The notes beneath the pieces are model-generated. The model saw nothing but the letters and a program-made list of their open reading frames with translations, had not been told where the DNA came from and did no database searches. Made by a program: the position numbers and the translations under genes. 64,000 bases of DNA. Origin: Bolinopsis microptera (taxonomy: Eukaryota; Ctenophora; Tentaculata; Lobata; Bolinopsidae). Shown here piece by piece: positions 2,077 through 45,355 of this stretch. Location of the stretch: NCBI RefSeq assembly GCF_026151205.1, contig NC_087072.1:11818169-11882168 (forward strand). Reading direction: 5' to 3'. Positions within the stretch are counted from its first letter, which is position 1; every line of letters begins with the position of its first letter.

Positions 2077-3108
2077 ATCATCTCTTTTTGATTATAATGT
2101 CAGGATAATTTACACAGCTAGTCGAAACTTCATAAACAAGGAGGTAATTTCGACGATTTCGAAATTCTGCCTTTGAAAACGTTTCCTTGTGTTTAGTTAG
2201 GTATATCTGTCGATAACAGACTGAATATGGCACTTTTTACTCATTCAAGTTGGCATTAAATTCATATATAATGCCATTTAAATATCGTGGAAAGCAGAAT
2301 ATATTCGAAATCACGAATGAGCAAAATTCTCACCTTTCGCACGTGCAAACTTTGAGCGGACGTTGCGTGCGCATACAATATTGAATCACCGTAAATTTTT
2401 GCATAGTGGTATTTAATATATAGTTTGATAAGCATGCAAAGTTTCAGAAGATTTCAAAAAGAACTTGGATCACAACGGGACTCCAAAGTTGATAAAAATC
2501 GTGAAAATCAAAATTTTTTAGTGATTTTAGCTATTTTAAATCAATTTGGGCGTGTCCCCACGTGTGCAACTTTTCGATTTTTAACTTTAAAACTAGCCTA
2601 TAACACAATTTACACCTTTAAGAAGCAAAATTGAGCTCCACAACCCAAGGGATGGCCCAACACCAGAGAATACTAATTCACAACTTTTGTGTTTTTATAA
2701 AATTATTCTTCAAAAAATCACTAACTTCAATAGCAAATATCTTTATGAAGGAGTAAGGTAGGAAACTTTTCCGGTAGATTTTCAGAATGCTTGAACAATT
2801 ATCTAAGGTGAAAATGTCCTCAGATTTTGAATAAAATTACTCCTTAATGGTTTAAAATCGATTTGAAAAGTTGTTATTTTGTCAAAAATCAAGTTTTAAA
2901 AACACTTAAATTGATGACGTCATCAAGTGATGATGATGATGATAAATTATTTTTCAATATAAAGTAAACTAAAGTATAAACGATTATCTTTAAAACCTGT
3001 GGTTCGAAATGACTGTATCTTTTGTACTTTTGAATCTACGGACACTTAAATGTAGGCTACAATTGACTGCAAAAAGCGTCTATACATATTATTATTATAT
3101 ATATATAT

Positions 3109-3442
3109 ATTTGACTAAAACCCATAATCATGGGTAGAGTGTACCGCTGCCAGTGTCTATCTTTTCCAAACAAAAGGAAATGATATTAATTTGAGGAACC
3201 GTCCGCTAATGCAAATTGAAACCGAGAATGAAATCGGTCGCTCGCTTTTCCCATTTATTCACAGCTTACGAATTGTAATATAATAAAGCTTATTAAATGG
3301 GAAAAGCGAGCGACCGATTTCATTCTCGGTTTCAATTTGCATTAGCGGACGGTTCCTCAAATTAATATCATTTCCTTTTGTTTGGAAAAGATAGACACTG
3401 GCAGCGGTACACTCTACCCATGATTATGGGTTTTAGTCAAAT
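3109..3442. repeat. Long palindrome (foldback element), copy 2 with inverted loop
   Basis: Arms 3109-3257 and 3294-3442 (149 bp each) match copy 1. The loop (3258-3293) resembles the reverse complement of the loop of copy 1: both contain AAGCTTTATTA and ACAATTCGT in opposite orientation. This is the pattern expected if recombination between the arms flipped the loop in one copy. Confidence 0.85.
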
Positions 3443-4478
3443 ATCATCTCTTTTTGATTATAATGTCAGGATAATTTACACAGTCGAAACTTCATTAATA
3501 AGGAGGTAATTTCAACGATTTCGAAATTCTGCCTTTGAAAACGTTTCCTTGTGTTTAGGTAGGTATATCTGTCGATAACCGACTGAATATGGCACTTTTT
3601 ACTCATTCAAGTTGGCATTAAATTCATATATAATAATGCCATTTAAATATCGTGGAAAGCAGAATATATTCGAAATCACGAATGAGCAAAATTCTCACCT
3701 TTCGCACGTGCAATCTTTGAGCGGACGTTGCATGCGCATAAAATATTGAATCACCGTAAAATTTTGCATAGTGGTATTTAATATATAGTTTGATAAGCAT
3801 GCAAAGTTTCAGAAGATTTCAAAAAGAACTTGGATCCCAAGGGGACTCCAAAGTTGATAAAAATCGTGAAAATCAAAATTTTTAGTGATTTTAGCTATTT
3901 TAAATCAATTTGGGCGTGTCCCCACGTGTGCAACTTTTCGATTTTTAACTTTAAAACTAGCCTATAACACAATTTACACCTTTAAGAAGCAAAATTGAGC
4001 TCCACAACCCAAGGGATGGCCCAACACCAGAGAATACTAATTCACAACTTTTGTGTTTTTATAAAATTATTCTTTAAAAAAGCACTAACTTCAAAAGCAA
4101 ATATCTTAATGAAGGAGCAAGGTAGGAAACTTTTCCGGTAGATTTTTGGAATGCTTGAACAATTATCTAAGGTGATAATGTCCTCAGATTTTGAATATAA
4201 TTACTCCTTAATGTGGTAAAATCGATTTGAAAAGTTGTTACTTTGTCAAAAATCAAGTTTTAAAAACACTTAATTTGATGACGTCATCAAGTGATGATGA
4301 TGACGTTAAATTATTTTTCAATACAATGTAAACTGAAGTTTAAACGATTATCTTTAAAACCTGTGGTTCGAGATGACTGTATCGTTTATACTTTTGGATC
4401 TACGGACACTTAAATGTAGGCTACAATTGACTGCCAATTGACTGCCAAAGCGTCTATATTATATAATATATATATATG

Positions 4479-5327
4479 CTTCACGACAATCTGTTGTAAA
4501 ACAGGGGTTCCAGAAAACCCACTTGCCGATACTGCTGAAACATGAAATTTTTTTTACAGTCGATTTGGACAAGGTCTAGACGCCCTGCAAAGTTTCAGAT
4601 CTCTAACTCAATTTTAACACGGTTTTTAAGGCACCTGAATATGGCGATTTTGGGTTTTTTACCTAATTTCGTATAACATGCTGGCGCGTATTTTGCGCAA
4701 ATTTCTTAAAAACCTCCACATAACTATTTCTTATTCCTGTCATCTTTAACATTGAATTAGAATGTTTTTAACTTTAATATACCTGCTGAACTACTTTCGA
4801 TGAGTCTTAATGCCTGGAAAACAATAAAGGGGATATAATAGTATAGGGGGTAAATAGTATTGTGAATATAAGGGCGACGGTAATGCTTGCCAGCATTGTG
4901 ATCTTCACGACAATCTGTTGTAAAACAGGGGTTCCAGAAAACCCACTTCCCGATACTCCTGAAACATGAAATTTTTTTCACTGTCGATTTGGACAAGGTC
5001 TAGACGCCCTGCAAAGTTTCAGATCTCTAACTCAATTTTAACATGGTTTTTAAGGCACCTGAATATGGCGATTTTGGGTTTTTTACCTAATTTCGTATAA
5101 CATGCTGGCGCGAATTTTGCGAAAATTTCTTAAAAACCTCCATATAACTATTTCTTATTCCTGTCATCTTTAACATTGAATTAGAATGATTTGAACTTAA
5201 ATGTATCTGCTGAACTACTTTCGAAAGAGTTTTAATACCTGGAAAACAATAAAGGGGATATAATAGTATAGGGGGTAAATAGTATTGTGAATATAAGGGC
5301 GACGGTAATGCTTGCCAGCATTGTGAT
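4479..5327. repeat. Tandem duplication, period 424 bp
   Basis: Unit 1 is 4479-4902 and unit 2 is 4903-5327. Both start CTTCACGACAATCTGTTGTA and end CTTGCCAGCATTGTGAT. Similarity is high with a few substitutions. No gene or transposon signature was recognised inside the unit. Confidence 0.9.
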
Positions 5328-5649
5328 AATAGTGTATATTGCGTATAGTATACACATGTATACTGTATAGTGTATACTTCGCCCATTTTGGGGTATAATT
5401 TACTGGGCTTTGACTGGTTGAAAGTCGAAAACCCGCGAGCCACAGAGGCACAGATAATTTGTATCTGCGAGGAAATTTTAAACGTTCTGGATGTGGGACC
5501 ATCAGTCTTCTGATGTGTCGCTATGACATCAGTACGATATTATTACTACATGGTAAAATTAGCACGTCAAATTTGCTCTTGCCAGGCAGTACGCTGAATT
5601 TAAAGGAACAATGTAAAGTAGTCTCTTCTTATTATTATTATATGTTTAA

Positions 5650-6215
5650 ACTCCTGTAACCCCCTCAACACTCCCTGGTAACCTCTGGTAACCCCTGGTA
5701 ACCACCGCAACACACTCCCTGGTAACCCCCTCAACACTCCCTGGTAACCCCTGGTAACCACTTCAACACTCCCTGGTAACCCTGGGTAACCCCTGGTAAC
5801 CCCTGGCCCTGGTAACCACCTCAACACTCCCTGGTAACCCCATCAACACTCCCTGGTAACCCCTGGTAACCCCTGGTAACCCCCTCAACACTCCCTGGTA
5901 ACCCCCTCAATACTCCCTGGTAACCCCTGGTAACCCCCTCTACACTCCCTGGTAACCCTGGAAACCCCTGGTAACCCCCTCAATACTCCCTGGTAACCCC
6001 CTCAACACTCCCTGGTAACCCTGGTAACCCCTGGTAACCCCCTCAACACTCCCTGGTAACCCCTGGTAACCCCCTCAATACTCCCTGGTAACCCCTGGTA
6101 ACCCCCTCAACACTCCCTGGTAACCATGGTAACCCCCTCAACACTCCCTGGTAACCCTGGTAACCCCCTCAACACTCCCTGGTAACCCTGGAAACCCCAT
6201 GGTAACCCCTGTGCC
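5650..6215. repeat. CTGGTAACC minisatellite
   Basis: Tandem array of CCCTGGTAACCCCTCAACACT-like and CCCCTGGTAACC-like units with irregular order. GGTAACC is also the core of the GTTAC-type minisatellites near 60.7 and 63.5 kb. Noncoding. Confidence 0.9.
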
Positions 6216-6394
6216 CTGGGTTCTGAAATACCACATACTGAACACAAACTTGACAGTTGAAATATTTAATAACCGAGCCAGAGAACTTTATCAAAAACTG
6301 TTAATTGTAAATCACATCGAACTGGGCGGTGAAAAACATTGTTAAAATATACTGAGTCATGATAAAAGGATAGTATTTTAGTAATATGGGATAT

Positions 6395-6414
6395 GGGGGG
6401 GGGGGGGGGGGGGG
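6395..6414. repeat. G20 homopolymer
   Basis: Uninterrupted run of G on the plus strand. Similar G or C runs of 13-25 bases occur at 8445-8463, 14287-14305, 17646-17665, 20764-20780, 39232-39256, 39699-39711, 40207-40221 and 40585-40603. Confidence 0.95.
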
Positions 6415-6914
6415 TACCAGTTTGTGAAAATGTAGAATAGTACCGCTGAGGTTTGGGAGGCAGCATCCCTGCATCATAGGAGGTCCCCTACATCTTGAAC
6501 CTGCTCTCCAGTACTGCATATTGTTCCTTCATCAACTAACATTTAACGCTAAATTACACATGGTCATATATTGCCCGCTGGATCAATGAAAGTCATCAAA
6601 TCGTATTTCCCAGGAAATTTGGAATACTCATGTTATGTGTAACTAATAATTTCCCAGGAGAATCGTGTCAGTAACCAGAGTTCGGACAAATCATGGCATC
6701 CTAAAAATGAAGCGTCATCTATACTACTATCATACTTATTTTATTTCGGTTTATCCAAGCTGTGAACTGTCATATGGTTATATTGTAACAGGCCACATCT
6801 CGATATGTTCCCAGTACTGAATAACGAAAAATACTGAATAATAGAAAAGTGAAATGAGTACCTGAAGTGCCAGAATGGTTGCAACCACGTGACTACCTCA
6901 CTGTTCTATAAGGG

Positions 6915-16038: not shown

Positions 16039-16560
16039 TTAAACAAGATCTGCAAATGGATAATCATCCACCGTAAAGTCTGATCTACAAGCATCAGTTA
16101 TACCCGACTTCTCAAAGCCTTTCCTTATGTCATCTGGCCTCCCTTTTAAATATACAAAAAGTTCGTTGATCCAACGAGCGTGTACTTCACGGATCACTGT
16201 CAAGCGGGTATCAATTTTCACATTGTCTGATGAAACTCCTCCATTGAGCTGACACACTATGTTTTTCGCGTACCAATCTTCGTACTTATTGCGCATGAAT
16301 TTCTTAGCCAGTCCATTGATAGATATGTCCAGGGGCTGTAGATGATGGGTCATATTAGCTGGAACTTTCTGTAGGATGCAGTTGTTGGCTGTCATCAGAT
16401 CTTTTAGTGTCTGTGTGTGTTGGGCCCGAAACACATCTGATATCAGTAGCGCTTTCTGCTCAGGGTTGTTGATGGAGGCTCGAACTGATTCTATGTGGGG
16501 AAGAAGGATTTTCTCAAAGAACTGGACACTGGTCAAACCTTTCGACCATCTGGTGAGGCG
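16039..16560 (-). pseudogene. Pogo/jerky-type DDE transposase, C-terminal fragment
   Basis: The 165-residue frame has the DDE superfamily signature of Tigger/jerky transposases: KALLISDVFRAQHT (second catalytic Asp region; the usual N-x-x-x-H becomes F-R-A-Q-H), then LQKVPANMTHHLQPLDISIN, matching the family's lPpntTxxLQPLD motif, and KKFMRNKYEDWY. The DNA-binding CENP-B-like N-terminal half and first catalytic Asp are not found upstream in frame. It therefore looks inactive. It lies within the TIR-bounded element 15710-18142. Confidence 0.75.
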
Positions 16561-21737: not shown

Positions 21738-22115
21738 TCTAAATTCCTCTAGATTAGTTTTAAATCGATAACAGACACTGAATTTCTAACTTTCTAACAA
21801 AAGATGGCGATTTATTTCAAAAGCTGATAACACGCTCTGATGAAAAATTATTTGACAACGATTTATATATTTCTATCAATATTTGAAAAAATCAATGTAC
21901 ATACATTCAATTAAATTAAGTGATGTAATTGGCAGAGCATGTTAATAATAAATGTTAGTATTTACTCATTTGTAGATACTTGATCTATTGACAGGGCCCC
22001 TTCTCATACATAGGAAAAGTTGGATGCCTTACAGATTACAACACTTCCAGAGAAACAAGTTAGAGGAGATTTAATTGAAGCCTACAAAATTGTGAATTGA
22101 TCGGTCGAGTATGGA
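21738..22115 (+). repeat. LINE-derived inverted-repeat arm, left (carries two empty sites)
   Basis: This 378-bp segment is repeated in inverted orientation at 30701-32504. Its 3' part encodes a LINE RT C-terminal motif (LPEKQVRGDLIEAYKIVN). It lacks the 1154-bp and 271-bp insertions present in the right copy and shows the uninterrupted sites CAGCT and GTCTGTTA (read on the complementary strand), so it documents the pre-insertion state. Confidence 0.85.
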
Positions 22116-22439
22116 AACCTCTGTAACCCTAGACAGATATTGTACAGGTTCTGAGCAAATCAAAGTGCAGTCTGCGTCTGACAAATGACATCACACAACA
22201 GTATCTTTAGCCTTTATTAAGGCTGATCTTTTCTGAAAGATGTTTCAGGAATTGTGAAGCCTCAAACGCATTTCCTCCTGTAGTACACCAAAGGCGTGAA
22301 AGTTATAAAAAGTATTCAAACAATATACACATAATATCACAATTACACTATATACAAATTAAAATGAAACCGTCAAAGATGCAGTACATATTCCCCTTTA
22401 CTTCTAAAATATTGATTGAACCACTTGAAAATTACATTT

Positions 22440-23606: not shown

Positions 23607-26600
23607 CTAGAAACATTCATAGTCCATGGTGGCAGGTATCAAGTTAAACGAAGTTACACTGACTGGCAATGTATACGATTGTCGTCTCCCTCTCTCACCC
23701 CTGACCGCTATCAGGGTGCTCCTGAGGATTGAGAATCTAATCCTGGTGCGCATATAACACATAATAGCCGCATAGTCTTCTCCTCTCTTCTGGGATAGTT
23801 TTTCAGCGAGTCTCTTGTGGTATCTTGTGGCTTGTGGACCCCATCCGCCATTTGTTGAGTATATAAGTGGAGTAAAGGTGCCTTTTTCCACCTGGATGAT
23901 TCTGTTGTTGTACTTTTTCATTTTCCTCATTTCATGAACTTTATAGATCTGTTCCATATCTTTTTTGTCATATGTGGGTGAGTTGGGGTGGGTAACACAG
24001 ACATCAAAGAATGTTCGTTCAAATGTGCTCCAGAGACCTCGTGAGGATACATCAGGTGCAGCTCTATCAGCATTGGTACCAACAATTTCTTCATTATCAA
24101 GGGGTATCAATGCTGGCTCAGTCACTACATCTCTGCATACTTCACGCTGCAGCTCTGCATTTAGATCGCGGATGTTGTTGTGTCTCATAGAAACATAGCC
24201 ACCTTTCTTGCATATAAGTGTGTGATTCACATTATTTCTCTCTCCACAAGCACAGTGAAATGGGGTGTTAGGGATCTCCCAACCATAACGCAAGTACAGA
24301 GCATCACGGAACTCAATCTTGTTCAGGGAGTAGCCAAATCTCTTCAATGGAAGTGCAGTAAGCCAACATCCTGAACCTTTCTCTTTGATGAACTGGAGAG
24401 ATCTCTTTAGGTTGGGATCTCTTACACTGTCCTCTATTGATTTGCTAACCGTAAATAAGTGTTTCTCCTTGATTGCCTTGAGACTTTTTATAGTGTCATT
24501 TTGAATTGACATGTTGTAATATTCAAGGGTGTTTTGCTGGTTGATAATCAGGTCTGTGAGGTCTTTTGTGATGGTGACTGAGGCTGTGAATTCTCTATTG
24601 CAGTTTTCAACTGGGTTGGAGATACCTAGGCCACCATGTCTGACTGGCAATGCAAATATGGAGCGGTCCAAGTCTGATACGTTCTTACCCAAGATTGCTG
24701 GAATAAAATCTGTTCTGATGCAATCCTCCAATGGTTGAAACAAGTGACTTATACCCGGGATGGTCCTCTGAATGAACGTCCACCGGTGACAAATTCCCTT
24801 AGTATATGCAGTCAAAGCAGCTTGGGGCTCCTCAACAGCAATTGATGACAACAGCTTGATGTCCTGACACCATTTATGGACTTTATCTGAGACATATTTG
24901 TTCTTAAAAACTTCGCTGCCAATTGCTGCACCCAAATGGCGTTCTCCTTCAGACCCGATTTTAATACCAGTGCCTGAGAATACTTTCTGCGCAAGATCTA
25001 GGTCCTCGGTTTTCTTCACAATCAGGACGGTCTTACTGGCTTTTGGGTAATATCCATACTTTGGTCCTTGCTCCAACAGCGTATCCCACCATATCTTAAT
25101 ACCTTCAATCTTTCCACCAGCACTACTGTCGTCTGCATACCAAGACTGTTTGCAAACACTGGGCTTGGAGGCTGTGGCTAGGTCATCTACTAGAGGCTTG
25201 ATCCCTAACGCATAGAATGCCATTGCTGCTACATCTCCCTGAGTTGAACCTTCCTCAGACTTAAGTTGGTAGTGGTCCTCGGTAGTATTAATGATCAGGT
25301 CTGCTGGCTTTTGGTAGTGGTTCTTTAGATACTGATAGAGCGGAGGACAGATCTCATGAACATTGTGAAGGGCTGCTTCTCTATTAAGACGATTGAACGC
25401 ATTATCAGCGTCAACCTGTAGTATTGCTTCAGTGTCACTGTCTTCCCAGATCTGTCTCATTGCATGAATGGAAGCCTCTATTCCTGATTTGAGCCCTGCA
25501 CAGGTCTGCAGTGGGCCAGCAGCATATTGTATATCAGTTTTGAAAGACATTATAACTGCTTTTCCAATGATTCTGCGCAATATCTCGCCGATTCCAATTG
25601 GTCTTACACCAGGTTTCCCGTTCTTATCCTGGCCTTTATCAAGAGGGATTAATCTGCATGCAGTGAACTCTTTCAGACAGCAATGATGGATATCTTCTCT
25701 ACAAAGGCGCCTTGCAACAATTGCTATAGACTCAGCAAGTGTCACTGATGCTTTGCCAAATGATTTGCTGCAGATGATATGCTTCCACAAATCTGAGTCC
25801 GTTAGTGTTGGGCCGCCTGATCCATCCAAATATAAACAAGCCCTCTTGACAGTCTCTGCGTCAATCCTCTCAAATATCACTTCCTGAGGTGGAGGAGTAC
25901 TGTGAGGGTGCAGAACAACTGGATCTGCTTTAACAGCTGGAGGGTGTTTCTCCCCAAGGACCTGTTTAATGTTTGCTGTTAGGCTGTGAACTCCTAAGGT
26001 GTCATTGGAACTGTCAACATATTTGGTGGCTTGTTTAACTTTCCCAAGAAGCATTAGTCGGCAGAAACTCTTCTTCCTGGATTCCTCGCTGATTTTTTGT
26101 TGCTGCACCAAGGCTTTCTGAATACTCCTGCACTCCATCATTAGATCGTCAAGTTCTCCATTTTTCCATTTAACCAAACGCTTGGTGAGATATGTTACAT
26201 GGTCTCTTGCTTTTGACTTGCTTGACGGTTTTTGCAACATGATTGGCAAGAAGATATGAACCAGTGCGAACGATAGCCTTTCCCACTTGGTAGCATCTGC
26301 AAATAAGAGGATGAGCCGAGTCAGTTCTTTTATAAAGTCGCTACCTGATTTACCTCTGGGAACTAGGAAAAGATTCTTTCTCCATGTCACCATCTCTTGA
26401 TAAACAGCTTGGACTTTCTCAGCTATCAACTCTTCATCAACCATTGAGCCCCAATTAATTTTGTTTGCTTTCACTGCTTGACAAGTATCACAAAACCATA
26501 TCTCTTCATTATCCATCTCAGCGTACTCGGTTTCACTGATAAACAAACAAGGTGCATGGAACCATTCTTCACAGCCATCACAACCCAATGCCTTATCCGA

Positions 26601-26966
26601 ATCCCCCACAACACTCCTACACACGGGACAGTTATAACAGATATCATTTTCCTCGTCAGGAGCATCAATGATCTGCTGGTTCTCTACATTATCCCTACAT
26701 TTCTGACAAACCCACCGTTCACTGTCCACTGGTGCAGACTTGCCAAGACATTTAGGATGGAAAAATGTCTTACAGGAATCACATTGAATGCTACAAGGTT
26801 CTGATATAAGATCTTTGGGACAGATTCCACATAACAGAGAAACAACAGGTGTAACATAAGCAATACCTTCAGAAGACAGGTGTTGAGATATCTCCGGATC
26901 ACAGGTGTCTGGTAGCTGTACACTCTCTGTTTCTGCTGTCTTGTCTTCACCGCTGTTTGTTATCAT
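23607..26966 (-). CDS. Non-LTR retrotransposon polyprotein: PHD-PHD-RT-endonuclease
   Basis: One uninterrupted frame; it is open from 26996, but that first codon is TTG, so the first ATG at 26966 (1119 residues) is the likely start. Residue numbers below count from 26996. Two PHD fingers: C56-C100 (CGIC, CDSC, FFHPKC, WVCQKC) and C120-C172 (GCDGCEEWFHAPC, WFCDTC). Reverse transcriptase: GVRPIGIGEILRRIIGKA (464-480), motif A LQVDADNAFNRLNR (D529/D531), motif B EGSTQGDVAAMAFY (582-595), motif C WYADDSSAGG (YADD 620-623), then HLGAAIGS (687-694). C-terminal CACGERNNVNHTLIC (915-929, C-x-C-x7-H-x3-C) and a restriction-like endonuclease region with DRAAPD (977-982), FFDVCVTHP (996-1004) and FTPLIYSTNGG (1041-1051). 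RT plus CCHC plus REL is the architecture of the R2/NeSL-type early LINE clades. Active-site residues are all present, so the element may be recently active. Confidence 0.9.
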   Translation of the reverse strand: MITNSGEDKTAETESVQLPDTCDPEISQHLSSEGIAYVTPVVSLLCGICPKDLISEPCSIQCDSCKTFFHPKCLGKSAPVDSERWVCQKCRDNVENQQIIDAPDEENDICYNCPVCRSVVGDSDKALGCDGCEEWFHAPCLFISETEYAEMDNEEIWFCDTCQAVKANKINWGSMVDEELIAEKVQAVYQEMVTWRKNLFLVPRGKSGSDFIKELTRLILLFADATKWERLSFALVHIFLPIMLQKPSSKSKARDHVTYLTKRLVKWKNGELDDLMMECRSIQKALVQQQKISEESRKKSFCRLMLLGKVKQATKYVDSSNDTLGVHSLTANIKQVLGEKHPPAVKADPVVLHPHSTPPPQEVIFERIDAETVKRACLYLDGSGGPTLTDSDLWKHIICSKSFGKASVTLAESIAIVARRLCREDIHHCCLKEFTACRLIPLDKGQDKNGKPGVRPIGIGEILRRIIGKAVIMSFKTDIQYAAGPLQTCAGLKSGIEASIHAMRQIWEDSDTEAILQVDADNAFNRLNREAALHNVHEICPPLYQYLKNHYQKPADLIINTTEDHYQLKSEEGSTQGDVAAMAFYALGIKPLVDDLATASKPSVCKQSWYADDSSAGGKIEGIKIWWDTLLEQGPKYGYYPKASKTVLIVKKTEDLDLAQKVFSGTGIKIGSEGERHLGAAIGSEVFKNKYVSDKVHKWCQDIKLLSSIAVEEPQAALTAYTKGICHRWTFIQRTIPGISHLFQPLEDCIRTDFIPAILGKNVSDLDRSIFALPVRHGGLGISNPVENCNREFTASVTITKDLTDLIINQQNTLEYYNMSIQNDTIKSLKAIKEKHLFTVSKSIEDSVRDPNLKRSLQFIKEKGSGCWLTALPLKRFGYSLNKIEFRDALYLRYGWEIPNTPFHCACGERNNVNHTLICKKGGYVSMRHNNIRDLNAELQREVCRDVVTEPALIPLDNEEIVGTNADRAAPDVSSRGLWSTFERTFFDVCVTHPNSPTYDKKDMEQIYKVHEMRKMKKYNNRIIQVEKGTFTPLIYSTNGGWGPQATRYHKRLAEKLSQKRGEDYAAIMCYMRTRIRFSILRSTLIAVRGERGRRQSYTLPVSVTSFNLIPATMDYECF

Positions 26967-26999
26967 CGTAGCGGACTTTCCATTGTCATACCTCAATAA

Positions 27000-27240
27000 A
27001 TGTAATAGATTTGTAGTGTTGTAATTAGTTTAAAACTAATTTTAATTTCTTCTTCGTAGGGGGCTGTGGTCAATATCACTAATGGTAAGATCGTGACCAC
27101 TGTAAGATAGAGCATTGGAGCCCTGTGCTTACCCCGGTAAAATTAATAAATCAAGGAAAAAAAATGTTTAGCTTTTGTTTTTTTTGCATTTAGTAAATCG
27201 TTTAGTTGCTTGTATAAAGCCGATGATCCTTGGTAGTGAG
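27000..27240. other. Noncoding sequence upstream of the PHD-RT ORF
   Basis: It contains a GC-rich block (CTGTGGTCAATATCACTAAT, then TAAGATAGAGCATTGGAGCC and CTTACCCCGGTAA) followed by an A-rich end at about 27160. This looks like the 3' end of another plus-strand retroelement or the 5' UTR of the PHD-RT element; I cannot decide. Confidence 0.35.
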
Positions 27241-30650: not shown

Positions 30651-30984
30651 TATTATTAGATATTTTATGTCCTTATCTACTTGGATTGAAAATATCTTTT
30701 CCATACTCGACTGATCAATTCACAATTTTGTAGGCTTCAATTAAATCTCCTCTAACTCGTTTCTCTGGAAGTGTTGTAATCTGTAAGGCATCTAACTTTT
30801 CCTATGTATGAGAAGGGGCCCTGTCAATAAATCAAGTATCTACAAATGAGGAAATACTAACATTTATTATTAACGTGCTCTGCCAATTACATTTTTAATT
30901 GAATGTATACATTGTTTTTTCAAATATTGATAGAAATATATAAATTGTTGTCAAATAATTTTTCATCAGAGCGTGTTATCAGCT

Positions 30985-32138
30985 CACAGTGGGGCTCCAT
31001 GCTGACATTTAGCCTAAAAACGAGTTTTCCTAATGTTTTAGATTGTTGTAAATTCTGATAGAGAATAAATAACCGGATTCAATGCTTTTTAAATTAGCTC
31101 AATATCTCGGTTGGGTCAAAATTTACAACCATTTGAAAAGCGCGCCTGAAAATAACCTGCCTGCACATGCCCAGAAACTCAATTTCACTGCCATTTTTGA
31201 GTCAGGCTGAGGTTCCTTTTGTTTTCAATGTTTTTCAACTTTTGATTGATTGAACATGGATATAAGCATTCTTAGTACTGTTTAAGAAGAAAAAACCATG
31301 ATTTCGGTCAATTTTGGATTTTTGGTAGCTAAAATTAGAATATTTTTCAAAAATAGGCCTTAAAATTTCATTCGCTGACCACAAATGGGTGGTAAAGTTA
31401 TAAATGGCCCCATATGGCCCGGGTTTCATTATGTTTTCTATGTTTTCCCATAATTTTTCTAGCAGAACCCAGAAAATTTGGCTTCGGAACGCTTCGGAAA
31501 AAAAATTATGACCCATTTTTGGTACTAGCCTGAGGTGAAAAATCGCGTCAAAATAGCGCGAAAAATGAAAACTGATAGATTAAAAACTGATTTTTTCATT
31601 TATTTCATAGCTTTTTGGTGAACACTTCGATATTTTATGCTAATACCAGCAAAGTTCAATTGGAATAAGCAATATTTGGATGGAAAAATAGTGCATATGA
31701 GCCAAAAATAGCCAAAATCTGGCAATTTGAGCTCGGAAAATCCAGGGGCAACTCTGATTTCATAGGATTTTTCTTATGTTTTTGTCATATTGCATAGTTT
31801 TTATGGTTCTTCTTTCTGAAATACCCTTAAACAATCACATCAGCATGATTGATGACCATTTCCATACGAAAAAGCAGAAAAATGGGACAGAAACCGCTTA
31901 AAATTCGATGAAATCTTAAAACTGCTAGTCAAAAAAGATGCTTTTTGTGTGACAGAAAGTGCCAAATTTTCGAAAAAATTGATTTTTTGCCCAAAAAAGT
32001 AGTGAAAGTTGTCCAATTTCACTGAAATAAGTCATAATTGACGATTTAATCCAAATTGACACCACCAAGATGTGGCCAGAGGCATAAAAGGGCAAAAAAA
32101 CCAAATGTCAGCATGCCCTTTACGCGAGCCCCACTGTG
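30985..32138. mobile_element. Transib/RAG-like DNA element, non-autonomous, CACAGTG termini
   Basis: 1154-bp insertion. Its ends are inverted repeats CACAGTGGGGCTC, followed on both sides by CATGCTGACATTT; at the right end an extra GCGTAAAGGG separates the two blocks. It is flanked by CAGCT (30980-30984 and 32139-32143), present once in the uninterrupted copy at about 21.8 kb, so the target duplication is 5 bp. A CACWRTG terminal heptamer and 5-bp duplication are the published hallmarks of Transib and RAG-type transposons. The interior is AT-rich with only short frames (93 and 60 residues) that show no transposase-like motif, so it would be mobilised in trans. The family assignment is by termini and duplication length only. 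Confidence 0.75.
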
Positions 32139-32196
32139 CAGCTTTTGGAATAAATCGACATCTTTTGTTAGAAAGTTAGAAATTCAGTGTCTGTTA

Positions 32197-32467
32197 CAGT
32201 GGCGTAACGTTGTCTGTTGGCGCCCCCGGCCGAAAAGGCGCCCCCTCCCCTTTTGGTGCCCCTCCCTAAAATTGAACAAATCAGGTGATTTTAGAGGATA
32301 CGCCGGTAAAATCTCTAAAAAATGTGAATCTAGATCAAAACGCGCAGTTTTGCTAGTACTTTAGTTAAGTTTTCGAAGTTGTCCCCCATTCAAACGACGA
32401 TTTGGCGCCCCCCTAAGACGGCGTCCCCTGCACAGCGGGGTCAGCGGGGCCCTTTGTTACGCCACTG
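32197..32467. mobile_element. hAT-type MITE with 8-bp target duplication
   Basis: 271 bp bounded by inverted repeats CAGTGGCGTAAC / GTTACGCCACTG. Flanks are GTCTGTTA at 32189-32196 and 32468-32475, present once in the inverted copy near 21.76 kb. CAGTGGCG-type ends and 8-bp duplications are characteristic of hAT elements. No coding capacity. Confidence 0.9.
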
Positions 32468-32509
32468 GTCTGTTATCGATTTAAAACTAATCTAGAGGAA
32501 TTTAGAAAG

Positions 32510-41930: not shown

Positions 41931-41934
41931 ACAC

Positions 41935-43209
41935 ATGATGGCAGAAGCAGCAACTTCGCGAGGTCGAGGTAGGGGTCGTGGTGCCCCTCGCGGAGGTCGT
42001 GGTGGTTACGGTCAGAAACGACCTGCTGAATCCTTCGACTACGAGGACTATGGTTCCGGAGGTGGGTACACCAAGAAGAGGAAGATAATGGACGATGTGT
42101 ACAGATTCCTGGTGAGAGAGGATCTGGTGAGAGCTGTCATTGGGAAGGGTGGAGATCACATCAGGATGATAAAGGAGGAAGCTAAAGCAGCAGGAATTGA
42201 AACCAAGGTGTCTATCTACGCTCAGGGGTCAAATGGCGCCCCCCTGATGGAAGGTGCTGTGGACAGAGTCATGAGTGTGCAGTCCACCGGGGACGGATTA
42301 GAAATGGCGCTCACAAACCTCCTGCCATCAGTGCAAATCCACCACAACCACAAATCTTTCAGAGGTGGTCGCGGAGGGGGTGGAGCACCGGGTCAGAAGA
42401 GTCAGAAGTTAGAACTCCGTCTACTGGTGCCAGCTCATTGTTGCAGTGGTATCATCGGTAAAGGTGGCTCTGTTATTAAGCGAATCAAAGAAGAGACTAA
42501 CTCCTACATCCAGGTTTACACTCTTCCCATGCCGGGCTCAGAGGAACATTGCGTCAGAATACAAAACTTTGAAGCTCCTGACCTGATTGCGACCGCTGTC
42601 AAAGTGTTTGAATCAATCGCAGATATAAAAGGAAAGAACCCGATAATCATGTACGATCCAATATACTTTGAGCATGGAGAATACGGTGATACCGGTAGTT
42701 ATATTGACACAGAGTGGTATCAGGAAGCACTACGATCAGGGGTTGCTAAACCCACTCCATTCAAACAGATACGAGGATCATCAAGAGCCGCCCACACTGC
42801 TCCTGCTGCCCCACATGCTGCTTACACTGGATATGAGGAGGAGTATGAGTATGGGTATGAGCATGAAGGGTACGGTTATGGGTACGATGAAGGTTACGGT
42901 TACGCTGAAGAGGAGTACGGTTATGAAGACTACTACGCATACGCTCCCCCAGCACCCGCGCCAAGAGCACGAGCACGTGGTGCCCCACGTGCACGCTCTC
43001 GAGCTGCTCCTCCTTCCAGAGGTTACGGAGCCCCCTCATCAGCCCCCAGAGGTTATCCTCCTCGTGGTAGAGGTGCCCCCAGAGGAGCTGCCCCCAGGGG
43101 TGCTCCTAGAGGTTACTCAAGAGGAGCACCACGAGCACGTGGAGCTCCCCGCGGTAGAGGAGGTCCTCCTCCAGCTGCTTCCTACGCTCCTGAGGAGGCC
43201 GTCGAATAG
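41935..43209 (+). CDS. Two-KH RGG/YG-rich RNA-binding protein, paralogue 1
   Basis: Single-exon frame of 424 residues; ATGATG at 41935, 12 bases after an acceptor-like TTTATTTTAG, suggesting a spliced 5' leader. N-terminal RGRGRGRGAPRGGRGG, then KKRKIMDD (NLS-like). KH1 has DLVRAVIGKGGDHIRMIKEE (GKGG 70-73) with an extended variable loop; KH2 has CCSGIIGKGGSVIKRIKEET (GKGG 175-178). After KH2 come a conserved tail (DIKGKNPIIMYDPIYFEHGE), a Glu/Tyr/Gly block, and an Arg-Gly-Ala-Pro-rich C-terminus, likely disordered and phase-separating. The KH domains are of the hnRNP K/PCBP type, but only two are present and the architecture is not a standard vertebrate one. It is followed by a closely related tandem copy. 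Confidence 0.9.
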   Translation: MMAEAATSRGRGRGRGAPRGGRGGYGQKRPAESFDYEDYGSGGGYTKKRKIMDDVYRFLVREDLVRAVIGKGGDHIRMIKEEAKAAGIETKVSIYAQGSNGAPLMEGAVDRVMSVQSTGDGLEMALTNLLPSVQIHHNHKSFRGGRGGGGAPGQKSQKLELRLLVPAHCCSGIIGKGGSVIKRIKEETNSYIQVYTLPMPGSEEHCVRIQNFEAPDLIATAVKVFESIADIKGKNPIIMYDPIYFEHGEYGDTGSYIDTEWYQEALRSGVAKPTPFKQIRGSSRAAHTAPAAPHAAYTGYEEEYEYGYEHEGYGYGYDEGYGYAEEEYGYEDYYAYAPPAPAPRARARGAPRARSRAAPPSRGYGAPSSAPRGYPPRGRGAPRGAAPRGAPRGYSRGAPRARGAPRGRGGPPPAASYAPEEAVE

Positions 43210-43880: not shown

Positions 43881-44206
43881 GATGACTCGAATATCAAATT
43901 TGTAAGGAGCTCCGAAAATTGTTTATCGGACGTGCTAAGGTGTGCGTGTTGCCCAAAGCTCTCTAACATCTTTACATGTTAATTTATATCTGATTTAATA
44001 ATTCATTTTTAATCCTCTATTATCATTTTCATTATGTGTTGTGTTGGTTATTTTGGTCACCCTGGCCCTGTTGCAAAAAATCGTGGTAGTAATAGTGACT
44101 ATTACGGCAAAAATTATTTATAAACGTAATTTTGAAAGGTAACTTTCCAAAAAATAATAGCTCAAAATTTACTGACTTAACACCTCAATATTTAGCTGCT
44201 GCCTTC

Positions 44207-45355
44207 ATGGCTGAAGCACCCATCAGAGGTCGGGGACGAGGTAGACCTCGCGGTGGTTTTGCACAGAAGCGCTCTGTGGAGTACGAGGATTATAGCTCTG
44301 CGGTGTACAGCAAGAAGAGGAAGATAATGGATGATGTGTACAGGTTCCTAGTAAGGGAGGACTTGGTTCGATCAGTGATAGGTAAGGGGGGAGAACACAT
44401 TAAAATTATCAAGGATGAAGCGAAGGAGCACGGTATTGAAACTAAAGTGTCTATCTACGCTCAAGGAGCAAACGGGACGCCTTTAATGGAAGGATCAGTG
44501 GACAGGGTGATGAGTGTACAGTCTACGGTTGAGGGACTTGGTATGGCGCTGGCTCATCTTTTACCATCAGTTCAGATTCATAAAAACTTCAGAACTGGTA
44601 CCCGGGGCGGTGGGTCGTTCGGCAGGGGAAGTCAGAAACTAGAGCTGAGATTGATCGTGCCATCTCACTGCTGTAGTGGGATTATAGGGAAAGGAGGGTC
44701 TGTTATCAGGAGGATTAAGGAGGAGACTAAATCTTACATTCAGGTTTACACACTTCCTCTACCACTTTCAGAGGAGTTTTGTGTCAGAATTCAAAACTTT
44801 GAAGGCCCGGACTTGGTTAATACGGCCGTTAAAATATTTGAATCGATAGCTGATATCAAAGGAAAGAATCCAATAATCATGTATGACCCAATATTCTTCA
44901 ACCACGGTGAGTACGGAGACACAGGGAGCTACATCGACACAGAGTGGTATCAGGAAGCTTTGAGATCGGGAGCAGCACAGCCTACACCCTACAAGGCCAT
45001 CAGCTCTCAAACTCAAAGCCGATACCCAGCTTACCCAGCTTACGAAGAGGCACAGTATGGGTACGAGGAGTTCGTGCCTGGGTACGGGGGGTATGGCGAG
45101 GACTATGGGTACGAATGTGGAGATCCTTATTATTACGACTATTACGAGTACCCTCCCCCGGTACCACGTGGCAGGAGCCGCGCACCCCCACGAGGGAGGG
45201 CCTATCTTAGCCGGGTCTTGTCTAGGGGCTTCAGAGGTCGGCCTAGTTATGAGGGCCGGGGATTGAAGACGGGGAGAGAGAGCTCTGTTAAAATAGAATC
45301 TATGGACTTCACCGAATCTGGAGCGGATACTGCTGGACAGTCTGCTCAAATTTGA
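44207..45355 (+). CDS. Two-KH RNA-binding protein, paralogue 2
   Basis: Single-exon frame of 382 residues from the ATG at 44207; the frame is open upstream to 44132 but has no ATG there. An acceptor-like CAATATTTAG lies 12 bases before the ATG, as in paralogue 1. Order: short RGRGRGRPRGG, KKRKIMDDVYRFLVREDLVR, KH1 with VIGKGGEHIKIIKDEAKEHG, KH2 with IIGKGGSVIRRIKEETKSY, tail DIKGKNPIIMYDPIFFNHGE and DTGSYIDTEWYQEALRSG identical or nearly so to paralogue 1. The C-terminus diverges: a YG/YE-rich segment, a short Arg-rich stretch and an acidic end without the long RGAP repeat. The pair clearly arose by local duplication. An ATTAAA occurs at about 45370. Confidence 0.9.
   Translation: MAEAPIRGRGRGRPRGGFAQKRSVEYEDYSSAVYSKKRKIMDDVYRFLVREDLVRSVIGKGGEHIKIIKDEAKEHGIETKVSIYAQGANGTPLMEGSVDRVMSVQSTVEGLGMALAHLLPSVQIHKNFRTGTRGGGSFGRGSQKLELRLIVPSHCCSGIIGKGGSVIRRIKEETKSYIQVYTLPLPLSEEFCVRIQNFEGPDLVNTAVKIFESIADIKGKNPIIMYDPIFFNHGEYGDTGSYIDTEWYQEALRSGAAQPTPYKAISSQTQSRYPAYPAYEEAQYGYEEFVPGYGGYGEDYGYECGDPYYYDYYEYPPPVPRGRSRAPPRGRAYLSRVLSRGFRGRPSYEGRGLKTGRESSVKIESMDFTESGADTAGQSAQI

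Follow-up and report, generated by a model that had tools for sequence, protein, structure and literature searches.

A young non-coding transposon, very probably a Transib, with unequal two-part ends in Bolinopsis microptera

The window analysed here, a stretch of 64,000 nucleotides from Bolinopsis microptera, contains at positions 30985-32138 of its plus strand a 1,154-bp element without a transposase frame. Very probably this is a non-autonomous DNA transposon of the cut-and-paste type that inserted recently and belongs to the Transib superfamily, within it most likely to Subgroup I, the one closer to RAG1L. Membership of the window element in Transib is well supported: 5-bp duplications, CACAGTG ends and a relative (the C3 element) with related ends and a Transib/RAG1-core transposase were all found. 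The likely assignment to Subgroup I, an already known type, is based on asymmetric ends and a CTT1 tail, the marks given by Tao et al. 2022; unequal pairs of ends were found in five families, and CTT1 in the transposases of the C3 and C2 elements.

The element is flanked by the target site duplication CAGCT (30980-30984 and 32139-32143, plus strand), and 5 was the sole fitting length when lengths of 2 to 10 were tried. Termini of the CACWRTG type that characterizes the Transib superfamily were found at both ends, where CACAGTG occupies 30985-30991 on the plus strand and 32132-32138 on the minus strand. The ends and the flanking CAGCT read as an earlier note on this DNA had claimed; its coordinates, 30980-32143, are the correct span when both duplications are included, the element proper being 30985-32138. 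The same note had pointed to an uninterrupted inverted copy near 21.8 kb with a single CAGCT, and it was located: positions 21769-22117 (minus strand) carry both flanks without the element, matching 30698-30984 at 94.6% and 32139-32196 at 96.6%. The two flank matches overlap by exactly 5 bp, and these positions (21822-21826, minus strand) read CAGCT, the empty target site. When the window flanks were fused with a single CAGCT and compared with the reverse complement of 21.6-22.0 kb, the alignment (169/182 aligned, 9 gap positions) spanned the junction. Since the inverted flank copy is empty and has CAGCT once, the insertion of the element postdates the duplication of its flanks. The longest stretch without a stop in the element is 114 codons, and tblastn with the Transib proteins of the same genome as queries gave no transposase match in the window copy at E 0.01, which bears out the claim that it has no transposase.

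The window holds other elements and frames. A second element, of 271 bp (32197-32467), has the ends CAGTGGCGTAACG and TTACGCCACTG, which we take to be hAT-like, and an 8-bp duplication, GTCTGTTA, at 32189-32196 and 32468-32475; in the inverted copy near 21.77 kb, the corresponding site lacks this element as well. On the minus strand, the 1,140-codon open frame at 23607-27029 has stretches resembling a PHD finger and a reverse transcriptase and is presumably a retroelement, and 16039-16560 is an open frame that in our judgement resembles a fragment of a DDE-type (pogo/Tigger-like) transposase. Two adjacent, similar open frames on the plus strand (41932-43209 and 44099-45355) have GKGG motifs and RG-rich tails; we assume the motifs to be KH-like and the frames perhaps to be two genes for RNA-binding proteins in tandem.

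A search of the genome (G000, 264.65 Mb) with the window element as query returned at least 34 match rows. They include at least 10 further near-full copies of the window family, family A (L001-L010), whose identity with the window element is 98.7-99.6%, one more copy at 91% identity, and two copies (L012 and L013) split by other inserted DNA. These last two were considered as long autonomous forms and rejected, the extra length being other inserted DNA with no transposase match. The window element and L001-L010 differ pairwise by a mean of 0.60% (range 0.17-0.95%), which indicates that transposition was recent. A sister family, B, has its short end in common with the window family and, on the other side, about 570 bp, at 92-94% identity.

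Target site duplications were scored at the 21 loci with both ends (the window, L001-L018, L024 and L029), leaving out one-ended or rearranged loci (L019, L020, L023, L025-L028) and transposase remnants. The 5-bp length held over the copies: the duplication was exact in 19 of the 21 loci, none showed an exact 3-, 4- or 8-bp duplication, and for 18 of the 19 all other lengths tried, between 2 and 10, failed to fit, L029 being the one that fits at 5 and also at 2 bp. The two loci lacking an exact duplication are L006, with one mismatch (AGCCG/ACCCG), and L011, with a damaged end. The duplication of L012 is weak evidence because this copy sits within a repeat array where CTGTG recurs, and L015 and L016 count as one insertion event because their flanks are identical; on contigs C5 and C13, respectively, they are the same family-B insertion in a duplicated genomic segment. 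Between unrelated flanks of matching base composition, an exact 5-bp duplication is expected by chance at about 0.0012 per locus. Seventeen duplications have 57.6% G+C (49/85 bases) versus 39.0% in the window (p 3.8e-4), and G+C-rich duplications are reported for ProtoRAG and Transib in the text of PMC8289069.

The ends of the element are bipartite and unequal. At one end, the heptamer is followed by the 6-bp spacer GGGCTC (30992-30997, plus strand) and the inner box CATGCTGACATTT (30998-31010, plus strand), which starts 13 bp from the end; at the other, the same box (32103-32115, minus strand) starts 23 bp from the end, behind the 16-bp spacer GGGCTCGCGTAAAGGG (32116-32131, read on the minus strand). 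The earlier note had described these as RSS-heptamer ends. The heptamer is indeed CACAGTG, but it is only part of the end, and the second, unequally spaced box had been overlooked. Five families were examined for the offset between the boxes of their two ends, and the best match was at +10 bp in families A, B, C3 and C2 and at +9 in C6. Out of 20,000 shuffles, the match between the ends was reached at any offset from 0 to 12 by 0 for A, 78 for B, 0 for C3, 0 for C2 and 5 for C6. Between the two ends of its own family the inner box is identical at 13/13 positions in A, C3 and C2 and at 10/13 in B, and it varies by family, being CATGCTAGCATAG in C3 and CATGATAGTTTAG in C2. A box that is the same at both ends within a family and different among families is the pattern that a protein-binding site kept in step would show. 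In the C3 and C6 elements, the 5′ side of the gene carries the long-spacer end. As the five families are related, the layout does not have five independent origins. One narrow search of the literature on Transib TIRs with helical-turn spacing found no relevant report.

The genome also encodes transposases of the expected kind. The Pfam RAG1 model was over its cut-off at 2 places in G000, one of them within the C3 element, and had no match in any control genome. The complete C3 element (G000:C3 4782663-4786589; 3,927 bp) has CACAGTG ends and the duplication TATCT, and contains two exons, open from stop to stop over 374 and 406 codons, that, joined across a GT-AG intron inferred by eye, give a product of 740 residues. 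This product scored 46.7 bits against Pfam RAG1 (cut-off 25), and in phmmer comparisons with solved structures it matched HzTransib (6pqn) at E 8.4e-23, amphioxus RAG1L at 3.9e-12 and RAG1 at 2e-8. It has FDG at 289, MDRK at 391 and EACNK at 658, which we take to be the DDE positions of the RAG1/Transib family. Its tail, CKHCDMRGHSRRWC at residue 707, matches Cx2Cx3GHx4C, the CTT1 motif, as does the tail of the C2 protein, CEECKIKGHSYRYC; in the tail of the C6 protein, read from the translation, the final cysteine of the motif is not in place. For the alpha11-alpha12 segment, the phmmer alignment, a sequence alignment alone, leaves 61 residues between two matched stretches in the C3 protein versus 23 in HzTransib. 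Pfam reported no RAG1 zinc-finger N-terminal domain in the C3 product. The RAG2 model (PF03089) had no match in G000 and none in 14 control genomes either, so this search has no positive control.

A tblastn-like search of the genome with the C3 protein returned 53 match rows, many of them short or with stops. The C6 element (C6:5380107-5384454; 608-4955 of L029) is bounded by CACAGTG over 4,348 bp, has the duplication TGGTG, and has a partner on C9 (L043) with matched DNA pieces about 90-93% identical. Its open frame of 387 residues had no Pfam match at 0.1, the RAG1 model included; it is called Transib because the C3 and C2 proteins match it (at E 8e-28 and 1e-30, respectively), and is a third, more divergent lineage. 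At another locus, L023 (G000:C2 19697500-19704500, about 2925-6757), a Transib copy has its long-spacer end fused with the interior of its own transposase gene, and ATATG flanks the whole on both sides. It looks like a product of self-insertion that was later itself inserted.

The ends of the window family were compared with those of the autonomous elements, excluding the heptamer. Against C3 they match at 12/19 and 17/29 positions, and 100 and 66 of 200,000 shuffles did as well; against C2 the match is weaker (2,013 and 6,169 of 200,000). The long end of family B is near chance against both C3 and C2 (12,368 and 8,203 of 200,000). Between the interior of the window element and the autonomous elements no match was convincing (24 bp at E 0.010 was the best by blastn), and the window element therefore did not arise from them by simple deletion. 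A search for the window family's own autonomous partner with the 26-bp short end, allowing up to 3 mismatches, gave 21 places and did not find it. When L025, L026 and L027 from this search were extended, no full element emerged, and the single transposase fragment seen adjoins a family-B end: in L027, the family-B short end is followed by about 101 shared bases and then by a fragment whose 59 residues are 46% identical with the C2 frame (E 3.9e-8), in keeping with a Transib source of family B. Transposase pieces also occur close to a family-B-like long end on contig C146, but this end is oriented away from them and was discarded. The window element was probably moved by a Transib transposase encoded elsewhere in the genome, for which the C3 protein and an undetected closer relative are both candidates. 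The trans-acting gene that the earlier note had predicted is present in the genome, as the Transib/RAG1-type transposase of the C3 element.

Duplications are 2-3 bp long in CACTA, 4 bp in Chapaev and 8 bp in hAT elements. On this ground, together with the coding relatives, CACTA, Chapaev and hAT were all rejected: 19 of 21 loci have 5-bp duplications, and the elements with the closest ends in the genome encode Transib/RAG1-type transposases. That the window element is of CMC type (CACTA or Chapaev), with CAC ends by coincidence, is thus highly improbable, even though its ends start with CAC and Chapaev is grouped with Transib as a distant relative in the account of PMC4411706. We also regard as unlikely, if somewhat less remote, a non-autonomous derivative of a RAGL transposon carrying RAG1L and RAG2L. 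The C3 transposase has the Cx2Cx3GHx4C tail described for RAG1L (PMC7204232), and its alignment to amphioxus RAG1L covers residues 247-696. However, the same tail is described in Subgroup I Transibs (Tao et al., PMC9435367), HzTransib outscores RAG1L for the C3 product (8.4e-23 vs 3.9e-12), that product has no RAG1 zinc-finger N-terminal domain by Pfam, and one gene is seen in the complete C3 element. The genome gave no RAG2 match, in a search silent in all control genomes too. Of the label "Transib/RAG-like" in the earlier note, the Transib part stands; in the strict sense of a RAG1L-RAG2L transposon, RAG-like is unsupported, since no RAG2-like partner was found in that search.

A plausible, though not a probable, account keeps the element in Transib and changes its source: a MITE-like family moved by a quite different, undetected Transib lineage, with C3, C2 and C6 as bystanders. 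The interior unrelated to the autonomous elements, the inner box and spacer sequences unlike those of C3, the near-chance match of the family-B long end and the many Transib fragments in the genome all speak for it. Against it, C3 is the closest of the three to the window-family ends and has the same 6/16 layout. The Transib classification is unchanged either way.

For the Transib reading, the following course is proposed. A Transib transposase from elsewhere would bind the inner boxes and heptamers of both ends, and one short-spacer (6 bp) end would be paired with one long-spacer (16 bp) end in synapsis. A nick at the heptamer border would then be followed by cutting of the flank through the hairpin route, and the free ends would be joined to the target with a 5-bp stagger, the repair of which would leave the duplication; nick, hairpin and staggered joining are steps taken from the RAG/Transib family. 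Because the 10-bp difference between spacers is about one turn of B-DNA, both inner boxes may present the same helical face to the protein, like the 12/23 spacers in V(D)J recombination. More tentatively, and with some doubt, the Transibs of this genome might follow an RSS-like pairing rule without RAG2, in which a 6-bp-spacer end works only with a 16-bp-spacer end and the inner box is a nonamer-like binding site co-evolving with the transposase. Such a rule predicts a box identical within a family and different between families, which is the pattern seen.

Several known systems resemble the window element. All Subgroup I Transibs are described as having asymmetric ends and CTT1 (Tao et al. 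2022, PMC9435367); unequal end pairs, CTT1 in the related transposases and 5-bp duplications are shared, a likeness by text description that leaves the 6/16 layout aside, and the difference is that the window element itself is non-coding. Asymmetry of the 12/23 type is listed for Drosophila Transib 5 and Anopheles Transibs 2, N1, N2 and N3 (PMC8355894). Non-coding Transibs with unequal spacers are therefore already known from Anopheles N1-N3 as described there; theirs are 12/23-type spacers with nonamer-like boxes, whereas the window element has 6/16 and another inner box. HzTransib (6pqn and other solved structures) shares the transposase family, but its ends, like most Transib ends, are called symmetric in PMC8289069. 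ProtoRAG and other RAGL transposons, as presented in PMC8289069 and PMC7204232, have CAC-starting ends, 5-bp duplications, the tail motif and unequal bipartite ends (27/31 bp in ProtoRAG, 4/13 in AanRAGL); they carry a RAG2L gene, whereas none was found here in a search without positive control. The V(D)J 12/23 RSS shares the CACAGTG heptamer, the two-part signal and spacers whose lengths differ by about one helical turn, and differs in its spacers (12/23 vs 6/16) and in that its nonamer, ACAAAAACC, is unlike CATGCTGACATTT.

As a transposon family by itself, the window element is ordinary; the one-turn spacing across five families is a neat example. Transib is the accepted source of RAG1, the enzyme that cuts antibody genes. 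The origin of the unequal 12/23 signals is debated, one paper holding that the asymmetry was brought by vertebrate RAG2 and another that it was already present in Transib. If the pairing rule were true, the 12/23 rule's logic of spacings one turn apart in length would be older than RAG2. A single genome that combines five related families, all offset by a constant helical turn, with a transposase frame that is open and a non-coding family that is young offers natural substrates for testing a RAG2-less preference for unequal pairs.
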